Positions 11,398 to 37,380 of a stretch of DNA of 46,541 bases are shown here, piece after piece (positions within the stretch are counted from its first letter, which is position 1; each line of letters opens with the position of its first letter). Origin of the DNA: Vicinamibacterales bacterium (lineage in GTDB: Bacteria > Acidobacteriota > Vicinamibacteria > Vicinamibacterales > Fen-181); assembly GCA_036504215.1 (NCBI GenBank), contig DASXVO010000036.1:1-46541 (forward strand). The letters are read 5' to 3'. A model generated the notes under the pieces. That model searched no databases, was not told the origin of the DNA, and was given only the letters and a program-made list of their open reading frames with translations. Position numbers and translations under genes: made by a program.

Positions 11398-11452
11398 TTC
11401 CCAGACAGGACCAGTCTAGGAAGCGGGACATCAGGAAGTCATAAGGAGGGCG

Positions 11453-12160
11453 TTAGGATTCTCGACCCTGTTCGGGTGGCAGGTGCAGGCGGTAGCCGAC
11501 CCAGGGCTCGGTGAGGAGGTAGGCGGGCGTAGAGGGCCTGGGTTCGAGCTTCTTCCTCAGCTGGTTGACAACCACGCGAAGATAGTCGACCTGGTCGCCG
11601 TAGTCCGGGCCCCAGACCGCTTGAAGCACCTGCCGGTGCGACAGCACCTTGTTGGCGTGCGTGACGAAATACCGCAGCACGTCGAATTCCTTCGGTGTCA
11701 GGCGCAGGCGCCGGCTTCGAGCGGTCACCTCCCGGGTGTCGAAGTCCACGGTGACCGCCCCCAGCACGACGCGTCCGGCCGGGCCTTGTCCTCCGGGGCT
11801 GCGCCGGAGCGCCGCCCGAATGCGTGCCGACAGCTCGGACGGCTTGAACGGCTTCGTCACATAGTCATCGGCTCCCGCGTCAAGGGCCTCGACCGCGTCG
11901 GCCTCGCTGTCTCGAACGGTGAGCATGATGACCGCGATCTCGGAGGTAGCTCGAATCGTCCGGCACACGTCCAGCCCGTTCATGCCGGGCATGTTGATGT
12001 CGAGCAGCACCAAGTCGAAACGGGATTCACGGAGCTTGTCGAGTGCTACCTCGCCGTTCTTGGCGTCATCGACTTCGAACCCCTGACCGCTGAACGTCAC
12101 TTTCAGCACTCGCCGAATTTGCGGGTCGTCGTCCACCACGAGAATCCGCCCGCCGCTCAT
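11453..12160 (-). CDS. kdpE: KdpE-type response regulator (OmpR family)
   Basis: A 235-residue OmpR/PhoB-type regulator. The receiver domain covers residues 5-118: acidic pocket VVDDD, phospho-acceptor D54 in VLLDINMPG, T81 in MLTVRD and K103 in TKPFKP. The winged-helix DNA-binding domain covers about 135-228 (LRLTPKEFDVLRYF, VLSHRQVLQAVWGP, DYLRVVVNQLRKKLEP). The LRVVVNQLRKKLE recognition helix and the pairing with a DUF4118 kinase are characteristic of KdpE. The start overlaps the stop of the upstream kinase by four bases (ATGA). Expected to activate the pump genes when potassium is limiting. Confidence 0.93.
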   Translation of the reverse strand: MSGGRILVVDDDPQIRRVLKVTFSGQGFEVDDAKNGEVALDKLRESRFDLVLLDINMPGMNGLDVCRTIRATSEIAVIMLTVRDSEADAVEALDAGADDYVTKPFKPSELSARIRAALRRSPGGQGPAGRVVLGAVTVDFDTREVTARSRRLRLTPKEFDVLRYFVTHANKVLSHRQVLQAVWGPDYGDQVDYLRVVVNQLRKKLEPRPSTPAYLLTEPWVGYRLHLPPEQGRES

Positions 12161-16377: not shown

Positions 16378-16512
16378 GCGGCAGCAACACCCGGCTCCGG
16401 CCGGCAAGGAGCAGCAACGGGCGGATCCGGCTGACCGCTTGGTTCTTCAGTGGGTTGCGGTGATTCCGGCTCGGTGGGGCACGGGTCGGCAACCGGCGGC
16501 AAGGTGGGCTCG

Positions 16513-16895
16513 TTCGTGCTACGAACCAGGAGGTCGTCCGCCTTCGCTCGCCGGGAGATCCATGCGAGCTACGGCGAGACCACGCCGCAGCGCGAAGCGC
16601 GGAGGCGGGCAGGTTCGAGTCCTGCAGGGCGCGCCACTTCTTCGCTCGCCACGCATCCGGGCGAGCGTTCCATCAACGCCCCAGTCCCGAGCGAGCGAAG
16701 CGAGTCGAGGGGCAGGGCGCGCCAAATCCTTCCGGATCAACAACTTATACTGTTCAGCCACTGGTCGATCGCGTTGTAGCTGCGACCCAGAGGGTCGCAG
16801 CCGTCGCGCGCGGGATTCGGCCAGATTCTGCGAAGTGACCTCGGTCGCCGTCCTTCGATCACCGGGCGTTGCCCTTTTCTTGCCCTTTGCCCGTC
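16513..16895 (+). repeat. Structured dispersed repeat, copy C (most complete)
   Basis: About 383 bp, in the same orientation as copies A and B. In order: the head from TTCGTGCTACGAACC; a tRNA-Arg-like T-arm and acceptor end at 16609-16636 (GCAGG, loop TTCGAGT, CCTGC, then AGGGCGCGCCA); a GCTCGCC/GGCGAGC hairpin; a second GGGCGCGCCA; and an unusually good hairpin at 16779-16801, with a 10-bp perfect stem (GCTGCGACCC/GGGTCGCAGC) and AGA loop. It ends with the conserved tail GATTCGGCCAGATTCTGCG through CTTGCCCTTTGCCCG. Its head is nearly identical to copy A and its tail to copy B. No protein is likely; it could be a non-autonomous mobile element or a structured RNA. Confidence 0.87.
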
Positions 16896-17085
16896 AGGGG
16901 ACCTGTGTTGGAGCAGGTACCGATGATGAAGGTCGAGTTCACCTCCGCACCGCAGTTCCCCGTCGCTCCCAGGGCATCCATGAGCTGGGTTGGCGCGGCA
17001 ATGCGCCGAGTCGCCGACACGAGCCGCTCCCGTCGGCGACGCCGTGGAGAGACGCCCAACTCTTCGCGACTTCGAGAACTGGCCT

Positions 17086-17692: not shown

Positions 17693-18190
17693 TCAGGGTG
17701 CTGAAGCGAGGGCCGAGCCGACGGCCCGCAGCAACTCGTTCGCGCTGAAGGGCTTCTGCAGCGCCGTGGCGGCACCAAGCGCCGACGCCGCCCGGAGCAT
17801 GGTCCCGCCGAACGCCCCCGATATCGCGATGATCGCGGGCCTCGGCTCGAGCTTCGCGAGCATGCCGATCGTTTCGATATTGTCCTGTTCGGGCATGACG
17901 AGGTCGGTGATGACCAGATCGGCGGCTTCAGCCTGCGCCAGCCGTAGCGCCTCGCGGCCGTCCGGGGCCTCCAACACTCGGAACCCGGCGCGCGTTAGGA
18001 CCCGGGACATCAGGTGCCGGACCGCCGCGTCGTCGTCCGCGACGACGACCGTCAATCTGCGGACGCTCTCGCTGGCGTCGGTGCGCGTACCGACCTGCTC
18101 CATCACGGCCTGCGGCCCCACCCCGCGGATGTTGTCTTCGTCGTCTGGAAGGCATGTCACGTCGATCTCCGTCGGCGACTCTGCGGTCAC
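17693..18190 (-). CDS. CheY-like single-domain response regulator
   Basis: A 165-residue protein with a 45-residue unstructured acidic N-terminus, then a receiver domain: [13 protein letters not shown] (acidic pocket 52-54), D96 in [16 protein letters not shown] and the Lys of [10 protein letters not shown]. There is no output domain. The start overlaps the stop of the large transducer by four bases, so it is translationally coupled and probably the immediate phosphorylation partner or adaptor for that transducer's kinase. Which kinase charges it is not clear, since the only CheA here lacks an Hpt domain. Confidence 0.85.
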
Positions 18191-21100
18191 ATCGAGAACT
18201 GGCCCACCAGGTTCTGGAGTTGCCCAGCCATCTTGGCGAGGGCCTGTGCCGCCGTCTGAGTCTCGGCTGCGCTCTGCGCGGCCGACTGCGCGGCGTCGGC
18301 GACGCTCGACACGTTGCGCGCGATCTCGGCCGACCCGCGAGCCGCCTCGGTGATGTTGCGGCCGATCTCGTTGGTCGTCGCCGTCTGCTCCTCGACGGCT
18401 GACGCGATCGTGTTGGACACATCGTCGACCTGACGAATGATCCCGGCGATCTGGCCGATGGCCGCCACCGCGCCCTTGGTCTCGCCCTGGATCCCCTCGA
18501 TCTTTCGGCTGATGTCCTCGGTCGCCTGCGCCGTCTGCTTGGCCAACTCCTTCACCTCGTGCGCCACGACCGCGAAGCCCTTGCCGGCGTCCCCGGCGCG
18601 CGCGGCCTCGATGGTCGCGTTGAGTGCCAGAAGGTTCGTCTGTTCCGCGATCGACGTGATGACCTTGATGACGTTCCCAATCTCGGCGGACGACTCTCCC
18701 AGCTTCTGGACGGTGTCGTTGGTCGACTCGACGAACCGCACCGCATTCTTCGCCATTTCGGCCGCTTCGTTGGCGGACTTCGAAATCTCGCGGATCGACG
18801 CGAGCATCTCCTCGGAGCTGGTCGCGATGACGGTGAGGTTCTTCGACACCTGCTCGGTGGCGGCCGAGACGACGCCGGTTTGCGTGGCGGTCTCCTCGGC
18901 GTTGGCCGCCAGTTGCTGGCTGATCGCGGTGAGTTCCTCCGACGAGGTGCCCAGGCCCTCAGCGTTCTGACCGATGTCGCGCATTGAGCCGCGCAGGTCG
19001 CGGACCATCGTATTGATCGAGTCCTTCATCGCCGCGTGGTCGCCAGCGTACGTGCCTTCCACCTCCCGGCGGAGGTCCTGCTTGGCCACGCTCTCGAGCA
19101 CCTTCGCCGCCTCCGCGATCGGCGTCGTGATGGCGTCGAGCGTCGCGTTGAAGCCGGCGATCACCTTCCGGTACTCGCCCTGGTGCTTCGTCGCGTCGGC
19201 GCGGGTCGCCATCCGGCCCTCGACGGCGGCCTGCGACAGCGTCCCGACATCGGCGACGAGCGCCTGGACGTTGGTCCGGATGGCGTTCATCCCGTTCGTG
19301 AGGATGATCTGTTTCCCCGGGAGGGGGCGCATCTCGCGGGCGAGATTGCCCGCGGCATACTCGTTCATGATCCCGATGGCCTCGACGACCGGGACCGATA
19401 TGGCGTCGAGAGCCTCGTTGATGCCTTTCGCTAGGCGCGCGTACGCGCCGGCCAGCGAGCCGACGTCGCAGCGGCTCTCGACGTCGCCGGCCTTCTGCTC
19501 GCCGATCACCGCTTCCAGGGCGGAGGAGAGGCGGGTGAGGTTGTCGATGCAGGCATTCAGATTGTTCTTGATCTCGTTGAAGTCGCCTTGGTAGATGTCG
19601 GTGATCTTCGGCGGGATGTCGCCCTTCGAGATGCGATCCACGTACTCCGCGGCCACGTTCAGCGGCCCAATGACCGCATCCAGCGTCGCGTTGACGCCCG
19701 CAATGACCGCCCGGTAGTCGCCCTGGTGCCTGGAGGCATCGGCCCGAACGGCGAGGCGGCCCTCGACCGCCGCCTTGGACAGTGTTCCGGTGTCCACGAC
19801 CAACGCTTGGATGCCTTCCATCATCGCGATGAAGGCCGGGATCAGCTCGTCGTTCTCCGAGCGGCGCCCGATCGGCTTGTACTTCGCGAGGTCGCTGAGG
19901 TCGCCGGCCGCGATGTGCAGCGCCACGCCCTGAAGGGCGAGCAGCCGTTCGCGCACCTCATCTACCGCGCGGCAGACCTCGGCGAAGATCCCCTGGTACT
20001 GCCCGGACGCGGCCAGGCGGTAGTCGTTGACAGCCATCCGCTGCAGGACGGCGTTCGCCTCGACGAGGCCGCCCAGGCCGTCGATGCACTGGTTGAGGTT
20101 GTTCTTGAGCTCGTTGAAGTCTCCCGCGTAGGCGTCCGTGATCTTCGGTGGGATGTCGCCCTTGGAGATGCGATCGACGTACTCGGCGGCCACGTTGAGC
20201 GGGCCGATCACCGCATCGAGCGTCGCATTGACGCCGGAGACGATCCTGCGGAAATCGCCGTCGTGCTTCGCGGCGTCCGCGCGGGTTGCCAGCCTGCCTT
20301 CGACCGCGGCTTTCGCGAGGGTCCCTGTGTCCTCGATGAGCGCGTTCACCGCGTCGATGCACGTGTTCAGGTTGTTCTTGATCTCGTTGAAGTCGCCCTT
20401 GTAGGGGTCGGTGATTTTCGGCGGGATGTCGCCCTTCGAGATCCGATCCACGTATTCCGCCGCGACGTTCAGGGGACCGATGACGGCGTCGAGCGTGGCA
20501 TTGACGCCCTGCACGATTGTGCCGTAACCGCCGGCGAACGCCGACGCGTCGCCCCGCTCGTCGAGCCGCCCCTCGCGCGCGGCCGCAGCCAGCCGGCCCG
20601 TCTCGGCCGCCATCCGCTGCAGCACTGCGACGGCGCGCGCGAAGTTCTGCGACAACACGTCGCGGTCCGACCTGGGCTCGATCGCGATCCCCAGGTCCCC
20701 CCGGCTGAGCGCGTCGGCCGCGGCCGCGATGCCCTTGATGTAGTCGATCGTCCCCCGGAAGGCGTCTGCGAGCCTTCCGACCTCGTCGCCGGACCGGTAC
20801 TCCACCACGTGGTCGACATCGCCGGCGGCCATCCGGTTGGCTACGTCCGTCATACGAGTGAGCGGGCGGATGGTCAGAAGCGTGATGTACGCGAGCAGGC
20901 CGCACGCTCCCAGAACCCAGACGCACGCGATCCCGCTGATCCACAGTTGCCGCCGAGACATACCGGCGACCGCCGACAGTTCTGCGTGCATCTCCGCCAC
21001 GAGACGCTGGGTGAGGCTCCCAAGCGCCTTCTTGATATCCGCTCCCTGTTTGCCGACCCGGAGCGCCTCGTCCGTGCGGCTGGTCTTCCCGCCGGCCATC

Positions 21101-21507
21101 TCGGTGTAGACGGACGAGGCGCTGGACGTGTAGGCCGAGTGCTCTCGCAACGCGTCCCCGGCGGCGACCCGCGCCGCCTCCGGCACGCGTTCGTCCCTGC
21201 GGACTTGCTCGAGCGCGGCCGCCACCAGCGCGGCCTTTTCTCCCCCGGCCTTCACCGACGCCGGATCGCCCGTCGTCACACCGGTCTCGTAGTCGGTCAA
21301 CTGCTGCTCGAAGGCAGACAGCGCGGCCTGGCCGCCCTGCGCTGCAGGGAACAGCGCGGCGGACATGTCCTCTAGTCGGTTCTGTGACGAACGGCCGCTT
21401 GCGACGACGAACGCCATCGCCACGGCGTAGCCGAGCGCGAGCGCCACGACGAGCGTGACGATCTTCCGGCCCAGACTGAACGACTGCCATTGTGACTTCA
21501 GGTTCAT
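18187..21507 (-). CDS. Poly-HAMP methyl-accepting chemotaxis protein, 1106 residues
   Basis: TM1 is at about residues 14-34 and TM2 at about 188-210, with a helical periplasmic sensor between them (four-helix-bundle-like, Ala-rich). A canonical HAMP follows TM2 ([21 protein letters not shown]), then a long array of divergent HAMP-like units in which the segment [20 protein letters not shown]-type recurs three times, and two related units with GFNATLDAI and AGNLAREM. The C-terminal signalling domain has the standard hairpin [18 protein letters not shown] then [17 protein letters not shown]. There is no CheR-docking pentapeptide. Such arrays of HAMP units are thought to relay and shape signals. 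It is the third gene of an apparent operon, after a periplasmic PBP-like protein and a porin, so those probably supply or present its ligand. Confidence 0.93.
19562..20508 (-). repeat. Three tandem-spaced copies of a 137-bp HAMP-unit repeat in the first transducer gene
   Basis: Copies at 19562-19700, 20101-20237 and 20372-20508 encode FNEIKNNLN-adjacent sequence plus the [10 protein letters not shown] and [11 protein letters not shown] units read on the minus strand. They differ by only a few bases, many of them silent. They are protein-coding repeats, not mobile DNA, but are long and similar enough to recombine with each other and with the three copies in the paralogous gene 5,820 bp away. 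Confidence 0.85.
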
Positions 21508-21563: not shown

Positions 21564-22742
21564 TCAGAAGGAGAACGTCGTCTTGAGTGCCAGCACATAC
21601 GAGTGCTCGGCCAGCGCATTCGTTCCCGTGGGGATCATCAGCGCGGTGCCGTGGATCTTGTGCAGCTCGGCCTTGACCAGCCAGTACTTGTTGATGTCGA
21701 CGCGAACCGCTGCGGCCAGGTCCTTGCGGAATCTGGCCACATCGCTCTTGTCGAAGCGATTGAGGTAGTAGTCCTCGTAGTAGGCACCCACCTCAGCGAT
21801 ATCGTTCAGGCGGTAGGTGCTGCTGACGTAGTACGACTCGTCGTCCTGATTCCGCGGGATGACGCCGCCCACGGTCGCTCTGACTTCCTGACGCCGGAAC
21901 TCCGCCGCCAGCACGAGGTTGCGGAACGCGTACTCGCAGGACACGTAGCTCCGGGTCAGCTTCGTGAAGTCCACCGGCAACGCAATGCCCGGGGGCAGGC
22001 CGATCCCCGGCGCCAGGGCTGTGGTCGTTACCTCGACGGTGAACGCCGTCTGGAACCGGGTCACGGCCAGACGCAGACCCTCGATCGGAGTCTGCCACTC
22101 GGCGTTCGCGACATAGGTCGTACCGCCATGAGCGTCGGTCACTTTGACGGGCAGCGCCATCTGGATGCTCTTCGCCACTCCGCCGTCCGCCACCATCGCG
22201 AGCGCGCCCATGTGCAGCTGGTACCCCAGCCGCCCGGCCTGCTTCATCGGGATCGTGCCGTAACCAGCCATCCCGGTCTGGGCGATCGTGCTCTCGCGCG
22301 CGCCATCGTCGTAGGTGCCCTGCGGCAGAAAGATGAAGGTGCGCAACGAGTCGTTGTCGCGGCTCTCGTTGTAGAGGCCGAGCGGCATCTTCACCTTGCC
22401 GAAGCGGATTCCCGTCCAGTCCCTGAGTCGGTAGTCGCCGAGCGCCCAGTCAATGGTCGGCGTGTCCTTCCCGACATCCCCTCGCGCCTGGGCGAACAGC
22501 TGCATGCCGATACGGAGCCGCGCCGTCACCTGCTTCTGGACGTTGAAGCCGAACTCGTTGAAGTTGAAGGTGCCGTCGCCGGTGCCCTTCATCACGTCGT
22601 TGCTGCTCGTGCTCTTCGCGTAGCCTTGGGACACGAACACGTGGACCTGCACGTCGTCGCCCTGCGCGAGCGATGCCGAGGGCAGGGCCGCCAGAAGGAC
22701 AGCGGCGAGAATCGGTGTCAGTCGTCTGGTTCTGGTGTTCAT
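21564..22742 (-). CDS. Outer-membrane porin-like beta-barrel (anion/phosphate-porin style)
   Basis: A 392-residue precursor with signal peptide ([20 protein letters not shown], cleavage after SLA near residue 26). The mature protein has alternating strands typical of a 16-strand porin: [43 protein letters not shown] (the RxGKxxxPxG segment seen in OprO/OprP-type and related porins), [12 protein letters not shown], and a final strand [11 protein letters not shown] ending in Phe. It starts ten bases after the PBP-like gene with a GGGAGA site and precedes the transducer by 56 bases. It probably lets the compound sensed by the neighbouring transducer into the periplasm; the substrate is unknown. 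Confidence 0.83.
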
Positions 22743-22752
22743 CGTCGTCTCC

Positions 22753-23208
22753 CTACTCGACCTTCATGGTCTTCGCCGACCCGGCCGCGGTTCCTGCCGG
22801 GACGTAGCCAATGGCGCCCGGCTCCTTCGCCACATACGCGGCGAGCGCCGCGGGATCGGCGAACGACTTCGGTGCCCCCGCCTTGCCAGTGAATACGAGC
22901 TTCTTCCAGTAGCTGTCGAACTGCGCCGGCGTCTTGCCGAGGACCTCCTGCAGGAACGCCTTGTGCGCCGCGCCGTCCTCGAGGACGACGATCTTCACCG
23001 CCGTCCCATTGCTCCACGTCGTCTTGTCGCCGAGGAACATGGCCTTGAGGTCGGTGCTGCTCACCGCCGCGCCGGGCGCGCTGCCGTTGGCGATCACCAC
23101 GTACTCCGCGGCCCACGTCGGGGACGAGACCAGCACGGCCGCCGCTGCCAGCACGGCGAGCGCAACGAGGCGCTTCGGGGTCGGTTTCCGCATCACTTGT
23201 CGAACCAT
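22753..23208 (-). CDS. Short PstS-like periplasmic binding-domain protein
   Basis: A 151-residue precursor with a signal peptide (basic start, hydrophobic VALAVLAAAAVLVSS, cleavage after WA near residue 33). The mature part shows the short PBP-like domain pattern of small phosphate-binding-protein relatives: VVIANGSAPGAAVSSTDLKA, MFLGDKTTWSNGTAVKIVVL, FLQEVLGKTPAQFDSYWKK, VAKEPGAIGYVPAG. Full PstS has about 320 residues, so this is one lobe only and cannot clamp ligand alone. I chose the ATG after AAAGGAGC rather than the ORF's first ATG 15 codons upstream. It is the first gene of the PBP-porin-transducer-receiver set with no ABC permease nearby, so a sensory or scaffolding role is likelier than transport. 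Confidence 0.8.
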   Translation of the reverse strand: MVRQVMRKPTPKRLVALAVLAAAAVLVSSPTWAAEYVVIANGSAPGAAVSSTDLKAMFLGDKTTWSNGTAVKIVVLEDGAAHKAFLQEVLGKTPAQFDSYWKKLVFTGKAGAPKSFADPAALAAYVAKEPGAIGYVPAGTAAGSAKTMKVE

Positions 23209-23221
23209 CGGTTGCTCCTTT

Positions 23222-23760
23222 CGGTTCGGCCGCCGAACGCCGATTCGCCGCACGCGCGGACGCCCGCGTGGCGAACGTCACTTCGACTCCAGCCAGGGAA
23301 TCGACCCGGCAGTTCGGTCCGGAGAGGGACGAAAATCTTGAGGCGGACTGGGAGATCCTTGAGCCTGGCGTCGTGGCTTCAGGGTTGCTCGCGGCGGCCT
23401 GACACGCCGAGGTGGGGTGCGGTTCGGATCGCGGCTAGAGCCTGGTGAGGCCCTCACGGATGGCGTACTTGGTCAACTCCGCGACACTGAGGCGCCAGGT
23501 TCTCCTCCGACCGATTGCCGCTTCAACAAGTAGCCGCGCACGCCCAGCCGCCGCGCCCTGTGGACCAGGTGCGGGTCGGCCTCCGCGGACAGCACGATGG
23601 TCCGCGCGCCGGGGAAGCGCTCCGAAGGCGGCGGATGAATGCCAGGCCGCCGTCCGGCGTGCGGAGGTCGCCGAGGGCCAGGTCTGGCGCCGCCGACTTC
23701 GCCCGGTCAAGCGCCGAGAGCCCGTCGGCGGCTTCGGCCACGATCTGGCTGCATCTTCCT
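23222..23760. repeat. Segmental duplication, degenerate copy (matches 30092-30870)
   Basis: The sequence from the upstream region of the PBP-like gene (CCGCCGAACGCCG at the left edge) through GACACGCCGAGGTGG and into a broken regulator gene matches the region upstream of cheA and its intact NarL-type regulator. Identity is high in the spacer (for example GAGATCCTTGAGCCTGG and GGCGTACTTGGTCAACTCCG in both). Identity then becomes interrupted by deletions. So the intergenic region and regulator were duplicated together and this copy decayed. Confidence 0.85.
23435..23760 (-). pseudogene. Decayed duplicate of the NarL-type regulator
   Basis: Fragments in different frames match the intact regulator at 30302-30940. 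VAEAADGLSALDRAKSAAPD then LALGDLRTPDGGLAFIRRL is a receiver piece in which the D-L-R-M-P motif has become D-L-R-T-P. A frame change is followed by remnants of GARTIVLSAEADPHLVH and LGVRGYLLKR. The DNA encoding most of the HTH is missing, and the C-terminal end LSVAELTKYAIREGLTRL survives. No start codon with ribosome site is left. Confidence 0.85.
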
Positions 23761-23963
23761 CGCCTCCGGACCGTGCCGAGTCAGACGGTGGTCGCGCGAG
23801 CGAGGGCAGAACGGCCTCGTGGACCTCGTGCGGTTTGGGGAACGAGGGCGGCGCTGACACGCGGATGGCGTCGAGGGGGGTGCGCTGCCGGGACCCGCCT
23901 GCACGAGTCCCGGCGCCATGGCACGGAGCCGACGGCGCTATCCGCGCCCGACTTCGCTGGAAA

Positions 23964-24006: not shown

Positions 24007-27000
24007 TCACATCGAAATCTCTCCGACCAATGCCTGGAGTTGTCCCGCCATCCCGGCAACCGATTTCGCGGCCTTCTCGGTGTCCGCGGCGCCCTGTGCG
24101 CCCGATTGAGCCGCTTGGGCGACGCTCGCCACGTTACGCGCGATCTCGGCCGAGCCGCGTGCGGCTTCGGTGATGTTCCGCCCGATCTCGTTGGTCGTCG
24201 CCGTCTGTTCTTCGACGGCAGACGCGATCGTGTTCGACGCATCGTTGATCTGGCGAACGATCTCGCCAATCTGGCCGATCGCGCCGACCGCGCCCTTGGT
24301 CTCGCCCTGGATCCCCTCGATCTTGCGGCTGATGTCCTCGGTCGCCTGCGCGGTCTGCTTGGCAAGCTCCTTCACCTCGTTCGCCACCACCGCAAAGCCC
24401 TTGCCCGCGTCCCCGGCGCGCGCTGCCTCGATGGTCGCGTTGAGCGCGAGGAGATTCGTCTGCTCCGCAATCGAGGTGATCACCTTGATGACGTTGCCGA
24501 TCTCCACCGACGACTCGCCAAGCTTCTGGACGGTCTCGTTCGTCGAGTCGACGAACTTCACCGCGTTTCTCGCCATTCCGGCCGCGTCGTTGGCTGACTT
24601 GGCGATCTCGCGGATCGAGGCGAGCATCTCCTCTGAACTGGTGGCGACCACCGTGAGGTTCTTCGACACCTGCTCGGAGGCCGCAGAGACGACATTGGTC
24701 TGAGTGGCGGTCTCCTCCGCGTTGGCCGCCATTTGCTGGCTGATCGCCGTGAGCTCTTCCGATGATGTGCCGAGCGCGTGGGCGTTCTGACCGATTCCCT
24801 GCATCGAGGTGCGCAGGTCCCGTACCATGGTGTTGATCGAGTCCTTGATCGCCGCGAGGTCACCCGCGTACGTCCCTTGCACTTCCGTGCGAAGGTCCTG
24901 CTTGGCGACCCGTTCCAGCACCTTCGCGGCTTCCGCGATCGGCGTCGCGATGGCGTCGAGCGTCGCGTTGAACCCTGCGATCACCTTCTGGTAGTCGCCC
25001 TCGTGTTTCGTGGCGTCTGCGCGGACGGCGAGCCTCCCCTCCGCTCCAGCCCGTGCCAGCTGCTCTCCGTCGGCGATCAGGGCCAGGAGGTTCGTGCGGA
25101 GCCGGTCCATCATCTCGTTCGCCACCACCTGCTTGCCCGGCAGCTTCTTCAAGACCGGTGTGAAGTCCCCGGCGGCATAGGCCCTCAGGATGTTCAGGAT
25201 CGTCAGGATGTTGCCGACGTGCAGTTGCACCGCTTCATTGACGCCCGCCATCATCTGCCTGTAGGCGCCGGAGAACTGGTCCACCGGCACCACCGCCTCG
25301 ATGTCTCCCGCCTTCTGGGCGTTGTGCAGCTCGCCCATCCGGCTGAGCATGGCGGTGAGTGTCTCCGTGAGCCCGTTCAGGTTGTTCTTGATCTCGTTGA
25401 AGTCGCCCGCGTAGCTCTCGGTGATCTTGGGCGGAATATCGCCCTTCGAGATCCGATCCACGTACTCCGCGGCCACGTTCAGTGGCCCAATGACCGCATC
25501 CAGCGTCGCGTTGACGCCCGCGATGACCGTCCGGTAGTCGCCCTGGTGCCTGGAGGCATCGGCCCGAACCGCGAGGCGGCCTTCGACCGCCGCCTTGGAT
25601 AGCGTCTGCGTGTCCACGACCAGCGCCTGGATGGCCTCCATCATCGCGATGAAGGCCGGGATCAGCTCGTCGTTCTCCGAGCGGCGCCCGATCGGCTTGT
25701 ACTTCGCGAGGTCGCAGAGGTCGCCGGCCGCGATGTGCAGCGCCACGCCCTGAAGGGCGAGCAGCCGTTCGCGCACCTCATTTACCGCGCGGCAGACCTC
25801 GGCGAAGATCCCCCGGTACTGCCCGGACGCCGCCACGCGGTAGTCGTTCGCCGCCACGTGCTGCAGGACGGCGTTCGCCTCGACGAGGCCGCCCAGGCCG
25901 TCGATACACTGGTTGAGGTTGTTCTTGATTTCGTTGAAGTCTCCCGCGTAGGCGTCCGTGATCTTCGGCGGGATGTCGCCCTTCGAGATGCGGTCGACGT
26001 ACTCCGCCGCCACATTGAGCGGGCCAATGACCGCGTCCAGCGTGGCGTTGACCCCCTCCACGATCTTCCGGAAGTCACCGCCGTGCTTCGACGCGTCGGC
26101 ACGTGTTGCCAGCCTCCCCTCGACGGCCGCCTTCGACAGCGCCTTCGAGTCGGTTACGAGCGCGTTGATCGCGTCGATGCAGACGTTCAAGTTGTTCTTG
26201 ATCTCGTTGAAGTCACCCGCGTAGGCATCGGAGATCTTCGGCGGGATGTCGCCCTTGGAGATCCGATCGACGTACTCGGCGGCGACGTTCAGCGGCCCGA
26301 TCACCGCGTCCAGCGTGTCGTTCACGCCCTTTACGATGTCGTGGTAGCCGCCCTGGAACTTCGCGGCGTTCCCGCGCGTGGCCAGCCTGCCCTCGACGGC
26401 CGCCCTCGCCAGCCCTCGGGTCTCGTCCGCCATCTCGCGCAGCGTCGTCGTCATCTCTCCGTAGGCCCTGGCGGCCTCCTTCAGCCGGCCAATCATGCCG
26501 TCGAACGCCTTCGCCAGTTGTCCGACCTCGTCACCGCGGTCGAGCCGGAGCTCCGTGGCAGTGACCGTCAGGCTGCGCCCGAGGTCGCCGCGCGCGAGGG
26601 CGTCGAGCTCCGCCGTCATCGTCCGCAGGTCGACGTCGCCGACCTGCTTGGCGAGAGCCACGACCTGGCCGACCGGCTTCGAGATCGACCGCGCCAGGAC
26701 GAAGCCCAGCGCGAGCGCCGCGAGGACCCCGACGCCGATCAGGATCGCCATCGTCCGCGTCGCCGCATCGGCGGTGGCCCTGTTGTTGTCGGAGATCCTC
26801 TTCGCCACCTGGATGTTGTAGCTCGTCAGAGTGTCGAAGGCATCCTGGGTCTGCCGGACCGTCGCCGCGCCCTCGTTGCGGAGCAGGGCAACCGCCTCGG
26901 CCTTCTTGTTCTGGGCCGACAGCGCGTTCAAGCGGTCCGCCAGGTTCATGTATCCCGTCCAGGCGGCCTGCAGGGCCTGGAAGTTCTGCTTGTCCTGTTC

Positions 27001-27327
27001 GTCCAGGAACTGCTTCCCGTACTCGGCCAGCTGCTTCTTCACTGCGTCGTCGGCCGCCTTGCACGCCGTGACGTACGTGCGCACCTCGTTGGGATCGGTG
27101 GCGATCATGGCGTAGGGGATGTTGGCCCGAACCGTGCCGTAGGCCGATGTGGCCCGCACGAGGTCCTCCAACGGAATCGTCACGGTCTCGTACAGCGCGA
27201 CGTCGTCGGCTTCGATCGTCCTGATCTTCGTGACGCCGACGATGCCGACGACGCCGGCAATCGCGGCGATGACGACGAAGCCCGCCGTCAGCTTGGTCCC
27301 GATCTTGAAGTTGTTCAGTGCATTCAT
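24007..27327 (-). CDS. Second poly-HAMP methyl-accepting chemotaxis protein, 1106 residues
   Basis: TM1 is at about residues 10-30 and TM2 at about 190-212 ([20 protein letters not shown]). The periplasmic sensor between them is of the four-helix-bundle MCP type ([37 protein letters not shown]). A HAMP domain follows TM2 ([15 protein letters not shown]), then an array of divergent HAMP units with three KGDIPPKI copies and the classic signalling hairpin [15 protein letters not shown]. It has exactly the length of the paralogue at 18187-21507, and the two align at a constant offset of 5,820 bp, although the sensor regions differ. The start overlaps the cheW stop by four bases. Upstream in-frame sequence runs out of frame through cheW and cheA and is not part of the gene. 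Confidence 0.94.
25382..26328 (-). repeat. Three copies of the 137-bp HAMP-unit repeat in the second transducer gene
   Basis: Copies at 25382-25518, 25918-26056 and 26191-26327 correspond one to one with those in the paralogous transducer. The stretch from about 25415 to 25860 differs from 19595-20040 by only a few bases per hundred, whereas the coding sequence on either side is clearly more diverged. Confidence 0.85.
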
Positions 27328-27869
27328 GCTTGCGCTCCGTGTCCTTCCGTGACTGTCACTCCACCGAGTCCTGCCTCGCGCGCACCCGTTCTGCCGGCTG
27401 CGACGCCGCGCTGGTCGAGCACCTGCGGCGCACCGACCGTGAGCAATAGATGGTTCTCGAGCTTGTAGACGCCGGTGGCCACAGCTCGAATGTCCTGTGA
27501 GAGGCTCTCCGGCACCGGCTCGTAGGCGGCGCCGTCCAGGTCGATCACGTCGCCGATCTCGTCCACGAGGAGGCTGACGGCCCCATCGTCGGCAAGGATG
27601 ACGACGTTCATCGGGACCTGGTTCGGCGGACGAACCTTCAGGCCAAGACGGCGGCGCATGTCGATCGCCGTCACGATCTGCCCGCGCAGGTTGATGAGGC
27701 CTACGATTGCGCCAGACGCCCGCGGCACGCGGGTCATGTCCTGGTAGTTGAGGACTTCCTGCACGCGCGACACTTCGACGCCGAACCACAGCCCATCCAC
27801 CACGAACGTCGCGAACTGCCCGCCGCGATCGGCAGTACCCGTGGCGCCCGCTACCTGGTCGCGCGCCAT
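27324..27869 (-). CDS. cheW: CheW-like coupling protein
   Basis: A 181-residue protein with a CheW/SH3-like domain: [41 protein letters not shown] then [13 protein letters not shown], and [14 protein letters not shown] followed by [13 protein letters not shown]. CheW links transducers to the CheA kinase. The ATG has a strong GAGAGGAG site and lies two bases after the cheA stop; its own stop overlaps the transducer start, so kinase, coupler and transducer form one tightly coupled unit. About 25 residues of low-complexity tail follow the domain. Confidence 0.92.
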
Positions 27870-27871
27870 GA

Positions 27872-29986
27872 TCAACTCCTCTCCGCGGCATCCGCCGCCG
27901 TGCTCCGTCGCGAGGCGACACCGGTGATGGTCCGGAGCAGGTCATCGCGGTCCGACCGCAGCACCCATCCGTCGAACCCGATCTCACCGGCCGTCTGGTC
28001 CGCGACTCGGCTGGTGAGTCCGAGCACGGGCAGGCCGGCGAGCCGCTCCCGCGTCCGCACCTCGTGCAGCAGGGTGCTCGTCTCACCACCCGGGAGGTCC
28101 AGGGCGGCGACGAGGACGTCCACCGGATTGCGCTCGCACGCCTCGAGGGCCTCGGCGACCGAGGCCGCTTCGGTCACCCGCAATCCGGCGAGTTCGAGGC
28201 TGTTCTTCAGGAGCGCCCGCGAGAAGGCCGAGGCGTCGGCCAGCACGACCGTCGTGCGGGCAGCGCCGACGGACTTCCAGGTCGGCAAGTCGCCCTGCAT
28301 CTCTTGCAGCACGGTTCCGAGGTCGAGGAAGTCCGTGACCTTCTTGCCAACAACCGCGGATCCGTTCAGCCCGAGCCTCGTCGAGGACTGTCGCACCGTC
28401 ACCGCGTCGTGCAGGATGTCGACGATCTGATCGACGATCAATCCCATCGACCGTTCGCCGTCGCTGAAGACGACCGCTGGGACCAGCTCGGGCAGGGCGG
28501 CGACGTCGAGCGGCATCCCCTCGAGGACGCACCCCACAGGCACGAGGCGCAGGAGCCCGCCGCGGTACTGGACCACCAGTGTTCCCCCGGCACGCTCCAC
28601 GCGATTCCGCGGGAACTCTTCGAGGCGGGTCACGAGCGCCAGCGGGACGGCGAGCCGGTCGAACGAGCCGGCCCTGAAGACGAGGTAGCTCTGCCGGCTG
28701 GCGTCCGCGAGGTCGCGGCGCTCCTCGGCCTGCGCCTGCGCCGGGGTGGTGTGCAGGACGCCAGACAGTTCCGCGATGCCGTGCACGTCCAGGATCAGCG
28801 CAACGCGGCCGTCGCCCATGATGGTGGCGCCGGCGTAGACGTTCATCCCCTTGAGCCGCTTGTCCAGCGGCTTGACGACGATCTCCTGGGCGTCGTGCAC
28901 GCCGTCCACGACCAGGCCGAACTCGTGGCCGTCGGCCTGCAGCACGACCACATTCACCAGGTCGGTGCGGTGCCCCTCGTCGCCGAGTGCGAGCAGCGTT
29001 CGCAGGCGGACGATCGGCAGAAGCGTCCCGCGGCGGCGCAGCACGTGCGTGCCGTGCACCACCTCGAGTTGCCTGAGCCCGTCGCCTTCCAGGCGCAGCA
29101 GCTCTCGCAGGCTGACCTGCGGAATGACGAAATGTTCCGCGCCGGCGCCGACCACGAGGCCCGGGATGATGGCGAGCGTGAGCGGGATCTTGATCTTGAC
29201 GGTGGTCCCGGCCCCCGGCCGGCTCATGATGTCCACGACGCCGCCGATGCGCTCGACATTCGTCTTGACCACGTCCATGCCGACGCCGCGGCCCGACACG
29301 CTGGTCACCGTGTCCGCGGTGGACACCCCCGGCAGGAACAGGAGATCCAGCGCCTCGCGGTCGCTGAGACGCTCTGCCTGCTCGGGCCGAAGGAGCGCCT
29401 TCTGCACGGCCCTGTCCTTCAGGTGCTGCAGATCCACGCCCGCGCCGTCATCGGTGATCTCGATGTTGACCTGTCCGCCCTCGTGAAACGCGCGCAGGAG
29501 GAGCCGGCCTTCGGCCGGCTTGCCGCGCTGGACCCGCACAGCCGGCATCTCGATGCCGTGGTCGCAGCAGTTGCGGACCACGTGCGTCAGCGGGTCCTTG
29601 ATGGCCTCGATGATGCTCTTGTCGAGCTCCGTGTCCGCGCCGTCCATCTCGACGGTGATCTGCTTCTGGAGTCTGGTCGCCAGATCACGCACGTGACGCG
29701 GCAGCTTGTTCCACACGACACCGATCGGCTGCATGCGGGTCTTCATGACCGCCTCCTGCAGCTGCATCGTGATCAGGTTCAGGCGTTGCGATGTCGACGT
29801 CAGGCCCGCTTCCTCGCGTCGGCTCGTGAACTGGATGATCTGGTTTCGGGCCAGGACCAGCTCACCCACCAGGTTCATCAGGCGATCGAGCAAGCCCACG
29901 TCGACACGGATGGTCGAATCCCCGATCCCGGTCTGGCCCGGCGATCCGTTCGACACCGGCGTGCTGGGTTCCTCGTGTTGGCTCAT
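27872..29986 (-). CDS. cheA: CheA-like kinase without Hpt (P1) domain and with a degenerate receiver
   Basis: A 704-residue protein. After a 28-residue linker it begins directly with the P3 dimerisation domain ([20 protein letters not shown]), then the P4 ATPase with N-box [13 protein letters not shown]1 ITDDGAGVD and G2 [13 protein letters not shown]5 CheW-like domain and a second CheW-like domain follow. A C-terminal receiver-like domain starts at about residue 578. The P1 domain with the phosphorylatable His, and P2, are absent. The start is fixed by an AGAGGTC ribosome site, and the upstream sequence is non-coding duplicated spacer. In the receiver, the acceptor Asp is replaced by Ala at about residue 628 ([10 protein letters not shown]), and the acidic pocket and the conserved Lys are also altered. 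The ATP site looks intact, so it could phosphorylate an Hpt protein encoded elsewhere or act only as a scaffold. Confidence 0.9.
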
Positions 29987-30091
29987 CGCGACCTCTCTGC
30001 CGGCCATGCGGCCAAGCCGGGGCGAACAAGGACCGGACCGCTCTCGCCCTGTCGCGGCACGGACTCGTGGCGGCCACGGACCTGACACCCA

Positions 30092-30870
30092 GTTGGCCGC
30101 CGAACGCCGGTTCACCGCACGCGCGAACACCCGCGTCGAGAACTTCACTTCGGCTCCAGCCAGGGAATCGACCGCCAGTTCCGTCCGGAGAGGGACGAAG
30201 ATCTCGAAGCGGGCCGGGAGATCCTTGAGCCTGGTGTCGTGGCTTCTGGGTGGCTCGCGGGCGGCCTGACACGCCGAGGTGGTGTGCGGGTCAAATCGCG
30301 GCTAGAGGCTGGTGAGGCCCTCGCGTATGGCGTACTTGGTCAACTCCGCGACACTGAAGAGCTCCAGCTTCTTCATCATGCTATGGCGGTGCGTGTCGAC
30401 GGTGGTCACGCCCACGCCCAGCGTCGCGGCAATCTCCTTGCTGGTCTTGCCTTCCGCGAGCAGGCGCAGCACATCGATCTCGCGAGAAGACAACGGCATG
30501 CGGCGGGCGGGTACCTGGGCCTCGCGGTAGCCTTCCGCGACGAGCGCCGCCACTTCAGGGCTGAAGAACGCCTGGCCGTGCATCGCGGCGTCGACCGCCC
30601 GGACGACTTCCTCCGACCGATTGCCCTTCAACACGTAGCCGCGCACGCCCAACCGCAGCGCCCCGTGGACCACAAGCGGGTCGGCCTCCCCGGACAGCAC
30701 GATGGTCCGCACGCTGGGGAATCGCTCCGAAAGACGGCGGATGAATTCCAGACCGCCGTCCGGCATGCGGAGGTCGACGATGGCCAGGTCTGGCGCCGTC
30801 GACGTCGCCTGGTCAAGCGCCGAGAGCCCGTCGGCGGCCTCTGCCACGAGCTGAATGTTCGGCTGACGCC
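30092..30870. repeat. Segmental duplication, intact copy (matches 23222-23760)
   Basis: The spacer upstream of cheA plus the NarL-type regulator gene. This copy retains a full regulator and is presumably the source or the conserved sister of the decayed copy upstream of the PBP-like gene. Confidence 0.83.
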
Positions 30871-30940
30871 CGAGCACGACCTTCAATCCGTCGCGGACGA
30901 TCTCGTGGCCGTCGACGATCAGCACGCGCGCAACATGCAT
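30302..30940 (-). CDS. NarL/FixJ-family response regulator
   Basis: A 212-residue protein with a receiver (residues 3-120: VLIVDGHEIVRDG, D56 in AIVDLRMP, TIVLSGEAD, GYVLKGN) and a LuxR-type HTH (about 145-205: PLSSREIDVLRLLAEGKTSK then EIAATLGVGVTTVDTHRHSM). The usual DD pair of the acidic pocket is DG here, which may weaken Mg2+ binding and phosphorylation. The ATG lies five bases after the stop of the hybrid kinase upstream on the same strand, so the two form a likely cognate pair. Target genes are unknown; the following cheA operon is the nearest candidate. Confidence 0.9.
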   Translation of the reverse strand: MHVARVLIVDGHEIVRDGLKVVLGRQPNIQLVAEAADGLSALDQATSTAPDLAIVDLRMPDGGLEFIRRLSERFPSVRTIVLSGEADPLVVHGALRLGVRGYVLKGNRSEEVVRAVDAAMHGQAFFSPEVAALVAEGYREAQVPARRMPLSSREIDVLRLLAEGKTSKEIAATLGVGVTTVDTHRHSMMKKLELFSVAELTKYAIREGLTSL

Positions 30941-30945
30941 CGGAG

Positions 30946-32916
30946 TCACGCCTCGACGGCTAGGCTGCCGGGGAGGGCGGCGCACAGCACTTCCCGGGTC
31001 TTACGCAGGAGCGCCTCTCCGGTGAACGGCTTCCGGATGAAGGCCAGTCCCGGCTCGAGTACGCCGTGGTGAACGATCATGTCGTCCGTGTACCCGGACA
31101 TGTACGCCATGCGGACGTCCGGGCGCTCCGCGAGCACCTGTCGTGCCACGTCTCGGCCGCCCATGCCGGGCAAGACGACGTCAGTCAGCAACATGTGGAT
31201 CGGACCGTCGTGCTCCCGCGCGAAGGCCTTCGCCTCGTCAGCGTTGGCGGCGGCGAGCACGCGGTAGCCTTGGCCGCGGAGCGTGCGCTCAATCAGCCTG
31301 CGGACATCGTCCTGGTCTTCAACGACGAGCACGGTTTCTGTCCCACCCAACGCAGGCACTTCAGGCGGGCCTGGAGTGACGGGCGAGACGGTGTCGCCAA
31401 CCGAGGGGAAATAGACCCTGAAGGTCGTGCCTCGGCCCGGCTCGCTGTGGACCCCGATCGAACCTTGACTCTGTTTGACGATGCCGTACACCGTCGCCAA
31501 CCCGAGTCCGGTGCCCCGGCCGACGGGCTTCGTGGTGAAGAACGGTTCGAACAGACGTCGCTGCGTAGCCTCGTCCATGCCGACGCCCGTGTCGCTCACC
31601 GCGATCATGACGTGCTCGCCCGTGGGGGCACCCGGATGCCGGGCGGCGTCCTCGGCAGCGAAGTCGACCGTGGCTGTTTCGATCGTGAGCAGACCGCCGT
31701 CCGCCATGGCGTCTCGCGCGTTGATGGCGAGGTTGATGATGACCTGCTCGAGCTGACCCGGATCGGCGCTCACCCGGCCGAGCGGCTCGGACAACCTCAT
31801 CGAGAGCGTGATGTCCTCCCCGATGACGCGGCGTAGCAGGGACTCCACATGGCGCAGCACCTGATTGAGATCGACGATCTGCGGTTGGAGGATCTGCCGG
31901 CGGCTGAAGGCCAGCAGTTGGCTGGTCAGGCTGGCCGCCCTCTTGGCGGCCTGGCGGATTTCTGCGAGGTCATTCTGGGCGGGATGCGACAGACCCAGTT
32001 CCTGCGCAACCATGTCCGCGTATCCGTCGATCACCACGAGCAGGTTGTTGAAGTCGTGCGCGACGCCGCCAGCGAGCCGGCCGACGGCCTCCATCTTCTG
32101 TGCCTGGCAGAGTTGCTCCTCGGTGCGGCGCAGGTCGGTGATGTCCTCGACCAGGACGGCGAGCCGTTGCGGGTGTTCTGGTTCGTCGACGACGGGAAAC
32201 ACGCGCCCCCGAACCCACCGGACCGTTCCATCGGGCCGTTGGATCCGAAACGTGCTCGACATGCCCTCCCCCGCCGGAAGCGCGGCGATAATCGCGGCCA
32301 CGTGAGGGCGGTCGTCGGGATGGATGGCTTCGAACCACACGAGCGGGTCGGCGTACGCGTCGTTCACGCGGCGGCCCCACGTGTCTTCCCACTTCTGACT
32401 GACGTACAGGGATCTGCCGTGTGGCATCTCGACGATGATGAAGGCTTCCTTGATGTTGTCGGCCAGCAGGCGAAACCGTTCCTGGCCGCAGGGGGATTCG
32501 AGGGCCCGCAGCGCCTTTCGATAGGCGCGGCGCCCGATCGCGCGCCGAACCACGGTCGAGAGTGACCCGAGATCGAGTCCCTCTTTCGCCAGGCAGTCGT
32601 CGGCGCCCTCCCGCAACGCAGCAGCCGTCGTGGTTTCGGTGGATGCCGAGGTCAGGATGACGATCGGGCTGCCCCCGGCGGACGCCGCCACCCGCCTCAC
32701 CGTACTGAGGCCATAGCTGTCGGAGAGGTCCGGATCGAGCACGATCGCATCGAACTCACCGGCGCCAAGACGGGCGACGGCGTCGTCGGCGCGGGACGAC
32801 ATCGTCACCGTGGCTGGACCCGATGCATGATGCTGAAGGCTCTCAACGACGAGCCCGGCATACGTCGAATCACCGTCCACGAGCAAAATCCGAAGCGTGT
32901 CTCTCTCCACCGTCAT
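30946..32916 (-). CDS. Hybrid sensor kinase REC-PAS-HisKA-HATPase-REC
   Basis: A 656-residue soluble kinase. The N-terminal receiver has D61 in AIVLDPDLSDSYG and K111. A PAS domain lies at about 145-262 (FRLLADNIKEAFIIVE, WFEAIHPDDRPHV, TVRWVRGRVFPV). The NtrB-like dimerisation domain has H287 in LAGGVAHDFNNLL, followed by an ATPase domain (NLAINARDAM, GVGMDEATQRRLFEPFFTTK, GRGTGLGLATVYG) and a C-terminal receiver (about 527-645, LLTDVVLPGMGG, RKPF). There is no transmembrane segment, so the signal is cytoplasmic. I placed the start at the ATG giving MTVERDTLRI. It is a close paralogue of the kinase at 35307-36965, which lacks the first receiver. Five bases separate it from the NarL-type regulator. 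Confidence 0.92.
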   Translation of the reverse strand: MTVERDTLRILLVDGDSTYAGLVVESLQHHASGPATVTMSSRADDAVARLGAGEFDAIVLDPDLSDSYGLSTVRRVAASAGGSPIVILTSASTETTTAAALREGADDCLAKEGLDLGSLSTVVRRAIGRRAYRKALRALESPCGQERFRLLADNIKEAFIIVEMPHGRSLYVSQKWEDTWGRRVNDAYADPLVWFEAIHPDDRPHVAAIIAALPAGEGMSSTFRIQRPDGTVRWVRGRVFPVVDEPEHPQRLAVLVEDITDLRRTEEQLCQAQKMEAVGRLAGGVAHDFNNLLVVIDGYADMVAQELGLSHPAQNDLAEIRQAAKRAASLTSQLLAFSRRQILQPQIVDLNQVLRHVESLLRRVIGEDITLSMRLSEPLGRVSADPGQLEQVIINLAINARDAMADGGLLTIETATVDFAAEDAARHPGAPTGEHVMIAVSDTGVGMDEATQRRLFEPFFTTKPVGRGTGLGLATVYGIVKQSQGSIGVHSEPGRGTTFRVYFPSVGDTVSPVTPGPPEVPALGGTETVLVVEDQDDVRRLIERTLRGQGYRVLAAANADEAKAFAREHDGPIHMLLTDVVLPGMGGRDVARQVLAERPDVRMAYMSGYTDDMIVHHGVLEPGLAFIRKPFTGEALLRKTREVLCAALPGSLAVEA

Positions 32917-33053
32917 ATACGGCGCCGTCCTTGGCGCCCAGACCAACGCCCGGGCCTCTCAGCGTGTCAATCAACCCCTGATGTGGAGCGGGCGATGGTC
33001 TCAGATGCACGAACACCTCGAGTTGCAGAGGGGGATCGGGTGACTTGTCCGAT

Positions 33054-35306: not shown

Positions 35307-36965
35307 CTACGACCCAGGGGGTACTTCGGCGGACAGGACCTCGCGGACCTTGTGCAGGAGCGCACTGCCCGTGAATGGCTTCTGGATGAACGCGAGCCCG
35401 GGTTCGAGCACGCCGTGGCGGACGATCGCGTCGTCCGTGTAGCCCGACATGTACAACACGCGCACGTCAGCGCGCACCGTGAGGATCTCGCGGGCGATCT
35501 CGCGGCCGCTCTTGCCCGGCAGCACAACGTCGGTCAGCAAGACGTGAATCGGTCCGTCATGCACTCGCGCCACGCCGAGAGCCTCGGCGCCGTCGCTGGC
35601 GGTGAGGACGCGGTACCCGGAGCGGCCGAGTGTCTTCTCGATCAGCCCTCGAACCTCGACCTGGTCTTCAACGAGGAGCACGGTCTCCGTCCCGATCAGC
35701 GCCGGCACTTCGACCGGCGGCGCGGTGACCGGCGTGGCTACGCCTCCGACGGCCGGGAGGTAGATCTTGAAGGTCGTTCCCTTTCCCGGCTCGCTGTAGA
35801 CCCAGATCGATCCCTTGCTCTGCTTCACGATCCCGTACACGGTCGCCAGACCCAGTCCGGTCCCCCGACCGGCGGGCTTGGTGGTGAAGAAGGGTTCGAA
35901 CAGGCGCCGCCGGATCGCCTCGTCCATACCGATGCCGGTGTCGCTCACGGCAACCATCACCTGCCTTCCCGTCGTCGCGCCCGGGTGCTGGGCGGCGTAC
36001 GCGTCGTCGAGCTCGACGTCGGCGGTTTCGATCGTCAATTGCCCGCCGTCCGGCATGGCATCGCGCGCGTTGACCGCGAGGTTCATCACCACCTGCTCGA
36101 GCTGACCCGGATCCGCGTTCACCCGCCCGAGCGGATCGGATAGCCGCATCGACAGGGTGATGTCTTCACCGATGACGCGGCGCAGCATGAGTTCCACGCG
36201 CCGCAGCACCTCGTTGAGATCGAGGATCTGCGGTTGGAGGATCTGCCGCCGGCTGAAGGCGAGCAGCTGACTGGTCAAGGCCGCGGCTCTCCGGGCTGCG
36301 GCCAGGATTTCGCCGAGGTCCGTTTGAGACCGATGGGAGGAGCCGAGGTCCCGCGCGATCAGCTCTGCGTATCCCTGGATCACAACGAGGAGGTTGTTGA
36401 AGTCATGGGCCACGCCACCCGCGAGGCGGCCGACGGCCTCCATCTTCTGTGCATGCCGGAGTTGATCTTCCGTCTGGCGCATCTCCGTGATGTCCTCGAA
36501 CAGGCAGACGAGGTGATACGGGTGCTGCCATTGGTCCAGAACCGCGAACCCGCGCCCGCGAACCCATCGAGAGGTTAGGTCTGGCGGGTGGACTCTGAAC
36601 GTGGCGGACACCGTCTCCCCCGCCTGCAGCGCCAAGAAGTTCGAAACCACGGTCGGACGGTCCTCGGGGTCGATCTTCGACAGCCACCACTCGAAGTCGT
36701 TGTAGCTGAGATCCGGGACCTGCAGACCGAAGATCTCTGCCCACATCCTGCTGCGGTAGACGGCCCTGCCGCTCGACATCTCGAGGATCATGAACGCCTC
36801 CCTGATGTGGTCAGCGAGCAGTCGAAACCGGTCCTCGCTGACGTGCAGTTCGTGGGCGCGCAGCAGCTCACGGTCATCGCGGCGCTCGATCGCATGCCGA
36901 AGCGTCCTCGAGAGCGACCGAAGTGCAACCTTCACCGCTTCCATACACTCACCGTCGTCCTTCAT
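35307..36965 (-). CDS. Hybrid sensor kinase PAS-HisKA-HATPase-REC
   Basis: A 552-residue paralogue of the kinase at 30946-32916 without its N-terminal receiver. PAS is at about residues 45-162 (FRLLADHIREAFMILE, WWLSKIDPEDRPTVV), phospho-acceptor H187 in LAGGVAHDFNNLL, then the ATPase domain (NLAVNARDAM, FEPFFTTK, GRGTGLGLATVYG) and a C-terminal receiver (LLTDVVLPGKSG, QKPF). Protein identity to the paralogue is high from the HisKA domain onward, and the DNA is also alike there. The start could also be the ATG seven codons later, which has a GGTGAG site. No dedicated regulator follows; the next gene encodes a methyltransferase. Confidence 0.9.
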   Translation of the reverse strand: MKDDGECMEAVKVALRSLSRTLRHAIERRDDRELLRAHELHVSEDRFRLLADHIREAFMILEMSSGRAVYRSRMWAEIFGLQVPDLSYNDFEWWLSKIDPEDRPTVVSNFLALQAGETVSATFRVHPPDLTSRWVRGRGFAVLDQWQHPYHLVCLFEDITEMRQTEDQLRHAQKMEAVGRLAGGVAHDFNNLLVVIQGYAELIARDLGSSHRSQTDLGEILAAARRAAALTSQLLAFSRRQILQPQILDLNEVLRRVELMLRRVIGEDITLSMRLSDPLGRVNADPGQLEQVVMNLAVNARDAMPDGGQLTIETADVELDDAYAAQHPGATTGRQVMVAVSDTGIGMDEAIRRRLFEPFFTTKPAGRGTGLGLATVYGIVKQSKGSIWVYSEPGKGTTFKIYLPAVGGVATPVTAPPVEVPALIGTETVLLVEDQVEVRGLIEKTLGRSGYRVLTASDGAEALGVARVHDGPIHVLLTDVVLPGKSGREIAREILTVRADVRVLYMSGYTDDAIVRHGVLEPGLAFIQKPFTGSALLHKVREVLSAEVPPGS

Positions 36966-37074
36966 CGGGCAAAGCCCGAGTCCTTCTGCTCGATTGACCG
37001 ACGACCGGCACTCGGGAACGGCGGCCGGCCTGGGGCTGTTCACGATTCCGACCCTGGCTGCGGCGTGGCGGCGT

Positions 37075-37380
37075 TCAGGCTCGTCGTCCTCGTGTCCGGG
37101 GCGGTTCCCGTCGCGCTCGAATCGTCTCGATGACGTGGCGGTTCCTGCACCCCGACGCCTCAAGCCTGCTGCCTTGACGCCACATCCACTCGAGGAGCCG
37201 CTCGCCCTCCGTGTCGACGAACGAGACGTCCGAGAGAGAGACGGTCACGTTTGCCGCGGGGATGGTCTCGAGCATCGACCGCCAATGGCGGTCCACCAAC
37301 CCCACCCACTCGTCGGCCAGCCGGCCGTGAAGAGAGAGCGTGCAGGCATCGCCGTGGTGTTCTGTGACGATCCGCAGCAT
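37075..37380 (-). CDS. STAS-domain-like protein
   Basis: A 101-residue protein with a SpoIIAA-like fold pattern: MLRIVTEHHGDACTLSLHGR, LADEWVGLVDRHW, ANVTVSLSDVSFVDTEGERL then LEWMWRQG, SRLEASGCRN. The residue of LSDVSFVDTEGE where anti-anti-sigma factors carry a phosphorylated Ser is Thr-Glu here, so classic Ser phosphorylation at that site is uncertain. It starts at the ATG after GGAGGGCC. A paralogue is encoded at 44069-44365. No anti-sigma kinase (HATPase_c of RsbW type) is visible next to it. Confidence 0.78.
   Translation of the reverse strand: MLRIVTEHHGDACTLSLHGRLADEWVGLVDRHWRSMLETIPAANVTVSLSDVSFVDTEGERLLEWMWRQGSRLEASGCRNRHVIETIRARREPPRTRGRRA

Follow-up and report, generated by a model that had tools for sequence, protein, structure and literature searches.

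A P1-less CheA paralogue in an acidobacterial genome that retains a complete sister CheA

CheA kinases that lack a phosphorylatable domain of their own have already been described. In Rhodobacter sphaeroides, CheA4 (composed of P3, P4 and P5, without P1) phosphorylates the P1 domain of CheA3 (PMC3591291, PMC2829493), and in E. coli CheA-short, which is devoid of the phosphorylation site, dimerises with CheA-long (PMC1447658). Split CheAs are rare: one survey counted 11 of them and 470 complete CheAs (PMC3591291), and a second found a CheA4-like form in no more than four other species (PMC2829493). The mechanism of these split forms has been worked out in very few cases. For acidobacterial CheA, our literature search found nothing useful.

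Here we analyse a CheA-like protein encoded on contig DASXVO010000036.1 of assembly GCA_036504215.1, from a Vicinamibacterales bacterium (Acidobacteriota; Fen-181). This contig of 46,541 nt is the whole stretch of DNA that was analysed, and is called the window. The host genome is a draft assembly of 90 contigs; C22 (which encodes a complete sister CheA), C35, C54 and similar designations are other contigs of the same genome. The gene and its parts are the following:

27872-29986, minus strand: cheA paralogue without P1 or P2, 704 aa, P3-P4-P5-CheW-REC (Pfam, tree, AlphaFold2 model)
29992-29997, minus strand: likely ribosome-binding site GAGAGG, 5 bases before the ATG at 29986 (sequence)
29732-29917, minus strand: P3 dimerisation hairpin, aa 24-85, sharing 85.5% identity with the C22 sister (Pfam and model)
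29177-29731, minus strand: P4 ATP-binding kinase domain, aa 86-270, near-invariant residues kept 57/57 (Pfam)
28757-29176, minus strand: P5 CheW-like regulatory domain, aa 271-410, evolving faster than that of the sister (Pfam)
28307-28699, minus strand: second CheW-like domain, aa 430-560 (Pfam and model)
27917-28258, minus strand: degenerate receiver, aa 577-690, with Ala628 in place of the phospho-Asp (Pfam, alignment, model)

The Pfam content of the protein is H-kinase_dim (PF02895), HATPase_c (PF02518), two CheW domains (PF01584) and Response_reg, and the CheA structures of T. maritima and E. coli match it by sequence. P3, P4 (with its N, G1, F and G2 boxes) and P5, the core expected of a CheA, are all present. 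The AlphaFold2 model (mean pLDDT 74.8, pTM 0.45) places, from the N- to the C-terminus, a disordered stretch (aa 1-25), the P3 hairpin, P4, P5, a second CheW fold and the receiver, whose alternating fold is predicted at aa 579-703. The protein begins directly at P3, as the initial annotation had stated: the ATG at 29986 has its own ribosome site, and the disordered stretch is followed by P3.

What is missing is the N-terminal P1/Hpt domain with its phosphorylatable His. Pfam detects no Hpt/P1 in the protein, even at E<=1, and no family in the 105 in-frame open codons upstream of the ATG. A P1 profile made from 88 homologues, with which the complete P1 domains of the relatives score roughly 99-168 bits, finds nothing above 4.6 bits in the six frames of the window; neither this profile nor tblastn reveals a P1 remnant in another frame, and a search for PF01627 across the genome gives no match on the window contig (46.5 kb). 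With no match in the protein, in the upstream frame, in the six frames of the window or, by the genome-wide Hpt search, on this contig, we conclude that P1 is truly absent, which upholds the earlier claim that no Hpt or P1 is encoded. That claim had been left dependent on there being no P1 behind an alternative start or a sequence gap; this was checked, and a real loss of P1 was found instead (a P1 hidden behind an alternative upstream start was rejected because the 105-codon open frame matches nothing). The protein combines P3, P4 and P5 with the absence of P1, which is the composition of P1-less or split (CheA4-like) CheAs.

The surroundings of the gene in the window are the following:

17693-18190, minus strand: single-domain response regulator, overlapping MCP2 (Pfam)
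18187-21507, minus strand: MCP2, 1106 aa, poly-HAMP, last 290 aa 85.5% identical to MCP1 (Pfam)
21564-22742, minus strand: exported protein, no family match, porin-like by eye (ORF list, Pfam)
22753-23253, minus strand: small periplasmic-binding-like protein, weak PstS-like match (Pfam)
23435-23860, minus strand: relic of a response regulator, from the second copy of the duplication, about 236 bp deleted internally (DNA comparison)
24007-27327, minus strand: MCP1, 1106 aa, 4HB sensor and poly-HAMP, tip identical to the C22 receptors (Pfam)
27324-27875, minus strand: cheW, with a 4-bp overlap with cheA (ORF list, Pfam)
30095-30301, no strand: duplicated non-coding spacer, also present at about 23228-23434 (DNA comparison)
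30302-30985, minus strand: LuxR-type response regulator upstream of cheA (Pfam)
30946-32946, minus strand: hybrid histidine kinase, REC-PAS-HisKA-HATPase-REC, related to the one before cheA in C22 (Pfam)

Both cheA and cheW, and cheW and mcp, overlap by 4 bp, in line with the coupling of the kinase gene to cheW and a giant transducer that had been noted before. The DNA upstream of cheA had been read as duplicated non-coding spacer. The duplication is real (30095-30372 against 23228-23503, 88.5% identity, longest exact run 31 bp; 30609-30853 against 23503-23747, 89.8% identity), but the spacer homology stops 109 bp before the cheA ATG and the other copy carries a response-regulator relic. There are two copies of the response regulator with its downstream spacer: the one before cheA is intact, the one before the small binding protein is a relic. 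The gene directly preceding cheA in C22 is a hybrid kinase; in the window, the response regulator and the spacer come between a related hybrid kinase and cheA.

A duplicated segment just upstream of cheA, in a draft genome of this many contigs, could also mean that an upstream P1 was lost from the assembly through a misjoin at the repeated spacer. We regard such an artefact as extremely improbable, since the homology ends before the ATG at the distance given above and its longest exact run is so short in copies that are only 88.5% identical; additionally, no orphan CheA-type P1 is present elsewhere in the assembly and the window cheA has a ribosome site in front of its start codon.

Elsewhere in the window, the hybrid histidine kinases at 30946-32946 and 35307-37163 are paralogous (73.8% DNA identity over 1.6 kb), the PstS-like and porin-like genes at 21564-23253, located between the two giant receptors, are perhaps an input module for MCP2, and a putative kdp potassium-transport operon with KdpD/KdpE-like regulators was recognised by eye at 2242-12160. 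A non-coding-looking repeat is found at 1-251, 1680-2015 and 16500-16910, with more copies on C32, C52, C1 and C60 (99-100% identity over 107-126 bp on two of these contigs).

Homologues were surveyed among the best 80 matches of a genome collection and among the hits from 193 genomes at class level and 396 at phylum level. P1 is present in every homologue with a readable 5' end (about 100 loci), with the reservation that a scan of the best 80 matches may miss rarer P1-less forms. The clade of P1-less relatives with the same neighbours for which the initial annotation suggested looking did not emerge among these loci: the window CheA stands alone, and its P1-less locus was seen in one genome only, with no other strain showing it. 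Other candidates for P1-less loci were rejected, as L068, L073, L086, L121 and L129 are cut by contig ends and L128 is partial, while in L090 the P1 lies in a different frame, beside an N gap. Four Planctomycete CheAs (L053, L064, L084 and L092) have two tandem P1 domains, the opposite of the window CheA. A tree of 90 CheA cores pairs the window CheA with the C22 CheA as sisters (SH-aLRT 99) and nests the pair within five P1-bearing acidobacterial relatives; the window CheA has a branch about three times as long as its sister (0.55 vs 0.19).

The kinase had been said to have lost both phosphoryl-acceptor sites. P1 is indeed absent and residue 628 is Ala at the position where Asp is expected, leaving the receiver without the conserved phospho-Asp of an active phospho-acceptor, but this is not one event, as the Asp is missing throughout a P1-bearing clade. 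At this position the C22 sister has Ser, as have L038, L039, L042 and L044 (all P1-bearing), L040 has Ala together with a P1, and the receiver of L138, also with P1, reads VAALDLP, exactly like that of the window CheA. Most P1-bearing acidobacterial relatives have Ser or Ala here, and L042, which is placed in Myxococcota, also lacks the Asp; relatives from Thermodesulfobacteriota and Alphaproteobacteria retain it. Since P1-bearing acidobacterial relatives lack the Asp too, its loss is separate from that of P1, and the idea of a second event linked to P1 loss was rejected. The ancestral receiver of this acidobacterial group thus already lacked the Asp, and of the two losses only that of P1 is specific to the window CheA. 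The Asp-less receiver would thus be an inherited structural domain, outside the P1-loss event.

Regarding the kinase core, the window CheA keeps all of the near-invariant columns (104/104, at >=95% conservation across homologues), including 57/57 in P4, and the ATP-binding boxes are intact, as had been reported. Rare residues number 6 at 244 conserved P3-P5 sites, which is mid-range among P1-bearing homologues. Three E. coli residues proposed as P1 contacts, R265, K349 and R471 (PMC10653900), correspond to R27, K108 and R233 (mapped via 6s1k), all of them retained; E. coli K391 corresponds to Val in the window CheA and to Arg in C22, at a position that varies throughout the family. The core, as far as its sequence tells, shows no decay, and part of the P4 conservation may be older than the P1 loss. 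P5 is the only domain that is clearly faster, with 16 unique changes vs 1 in C22 (p=0.0003), and this acceleration, together with the long branch, may reflect weaker or altered array binding. Close to the ATP lid, residue 221 (at about 29326-29324), the Phe of PGFST in 92% of the family, is Val in the window CheA and Leu in C22; this change is not tied to the loss of P1, since C22, which has P1, also deviates.

The long branch, the accelerated P5, the broken response-regulator copy nearby and the detection in a single genome would fit a decaying duplicate, which lost P1 recently and whose remainder is yet to erode. We consider this quite unlikely for a gene with a clean start codon and ribosome site, 704 open codons, all near-invariant residues and the cheW and mcp overlaps still in place.

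The complete CheA of the same genome (C22:31717-34395) is 65% identical to the window CheA, has the same domain order and carries an intact Hpt (57.4 bits). Its operon is cheA-cheW-cheR-mcp-mcp-cheY-cheB-cheR, with motAB ahead of it; the cheR after cheW is a CheR-like gene, the two mcp genes encode giant poly-HAMP receptors, and a free Hpt and a hybrid kinase also lie around cheA. C54 encodes a third, more distant CheA, accompanied by a cheB, a cheR and a receptor of its own. CheB and CheR are encoded only on C22 and C54 and are absent from the window, confirming the earlier statement that neither is nearby. The P1 profile detects only two CheA-type P1s in the genome, those of C22 (about 155-159 bits) and C54 (101 bits), each of them part of a CheA with its own P3 and P4, and a CheA3-like partner (P1 and P5, no P4) was not found in the same genome. 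Contamination of the bin was rejected, given the GC contents (0.662 for the window vs 0.668 for C22), the tetranucleotide correlation (r 0.85) and the recurrence of the window repeat on other contigs of the genome.

A CheA with an intact P4 but no P1 of its own implies either an acceptor in trans or a scaffold role, and to this extent the initial annotation, according to which the kinase must use a free Hpt, use another acceptor or act as a scaffold, holds. The search for free Hpts that it proposed yielded two, of 115 aa (C22:27751-28098) and 113 aa (C35:268069-268410), both with the His-x-x-Lys-Gly motif and the first of them within the sister che locus. There is, nevertheless, only a slight chance that either is the substrate, as they do not resemble a CheA-type P1 (15.7 bits for C22 and 10.5 bits for C35 with the P1 profile, vs 159 for the C22 P1) and the C22 Hpt adjoins a hybrid histidine kinase, a usual type of phosphorelay partner. 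A free Hpt is moreover unnecessary, since the genome has a complete sister CheA on C22, which is the candidate P1 donor.

On balance, the sequence comparisons and the analogy with described systems make it probable, if only somewhat, that cheA was duplicated, that one copy lost P1, and that its product phosphorylates the C22 P1 in trans, feeding the signals of its own receptors into the sister pathway. The window cheA is a duplicate of a complete Hpt-P3-P4-P5-CheW-REC cheA, which still exists on C22. After duplication, the 5' part for P1 and the linker was lost, and the response-regulator/spacer segment is now found directly upstream; a rearrangement that put this segment before the truncated cheA is a plausible route. 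The protein retains the domain for dimerisation, the complete ATP-binding kinase domain and the domains for receptor/CheW binding, and could act on the C22 P1 in heterodimers or between neighbouring dimers; CheA4 is the biochemical precedent for this (PMC3591291), and CheA-short that for mixed dimers (PMC1447658). The signals of the two window receptors would then reach the CheY and CheB of C22, perhaps also the window response regulators, and adaptation would be supplied by the CheR and CheB of C22.

Partnership within chemosensory arrays is set by the receptor tips and by the P5/CheW contacts. Over 41 residues, the tips of both window receptors and both C22 receptors are identical, while that of the C54 receptor differs, and the window and C22 CheWs are identical at 95 of 164 positions. 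Mixed arrays and heterodimers of the window and C22 CheAs are plausible, given these identical tips and a P3 identity of 85.5%. The same evidence would also place in these arrays a non-catalytic component, whose homo- or heterodimers lower or tune the output of the C22 CheA and whose P4 is kept for fold and allostery. The lack of a P1 in cis and of its own CheB/CheR agree with such a role, as does the enzymatic inactivity of E. coli CheA-short homodimers (PMC1447658). We find it unlikely, as a scaffold on a long branch would be expected to lose some of the near-invariant P4 residues, ATP boxes included, that are here kept in full. Also improbable, to a similar degree, is a stricter form of trans-phosphorylation, in which mixed dimers in common arrays are obligate, one set of receptors acts on the P4 of the truncated subunit, the other set on the complete subunit, and the single P1 becomes a coincidence detector for two groups of stimuli; if true, gene duplication and domain loss would have produced a two-input kinase.

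The window CheA had been proposed as the best candidate for an undescribed signalling arrangement, a claim that does not stand against CheA4 (PMC3591291, PMC2829493) and CheA-short (PMC1447658): it is a rare truncated CheA of a kind already known, and not a new signalling principle. With the CheAs of acidobacterial relatives (C22; L038-L041, L044, L138) it shares the domain order after P1, the Asp-less receiver, a cheW downstream and, on contigs that extend far enough, an MCP as well; unlike it, all of these have P1. Where contigs are long enough, cheY and cheB are also present (L038, L039, L044, C22), as is cheR in L038, L039 and C22. Similarly to E. coli CheA-short, the window CheA has no phosphorylated His and keeps P3-P5 (PMC1447658). 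CheA-short, however, is translated from an internal in-frame start within the gene of the full-length form, whereas the window CheA is the product of a separate paralogous gene, 35% diverged, with its own cheW and receptors. R. sphaeroides CheA4 is likewise a P3-P4-P5 protein without P1, from one of several chemosensory loci (PMC3591291, PMC2829493, PMC6829392), and its need for a P1 in trans (PMC3591291) is also expected for the window CheA, which differs from it by an extra CheW-like domain and the Asp-less receiver. The CheA4 partner, CheA3, has only P1 and P5, while the likely partner of the window CheA is the full-length sister from C22. The case suggests how a split CheA may originate, by duplication of a complete cheA followed by a loss of P1 that spares the kinase core, and the survival of both copies in one genome makes them a natural pair for the study of trans-phosphorylation and subunit mixing.
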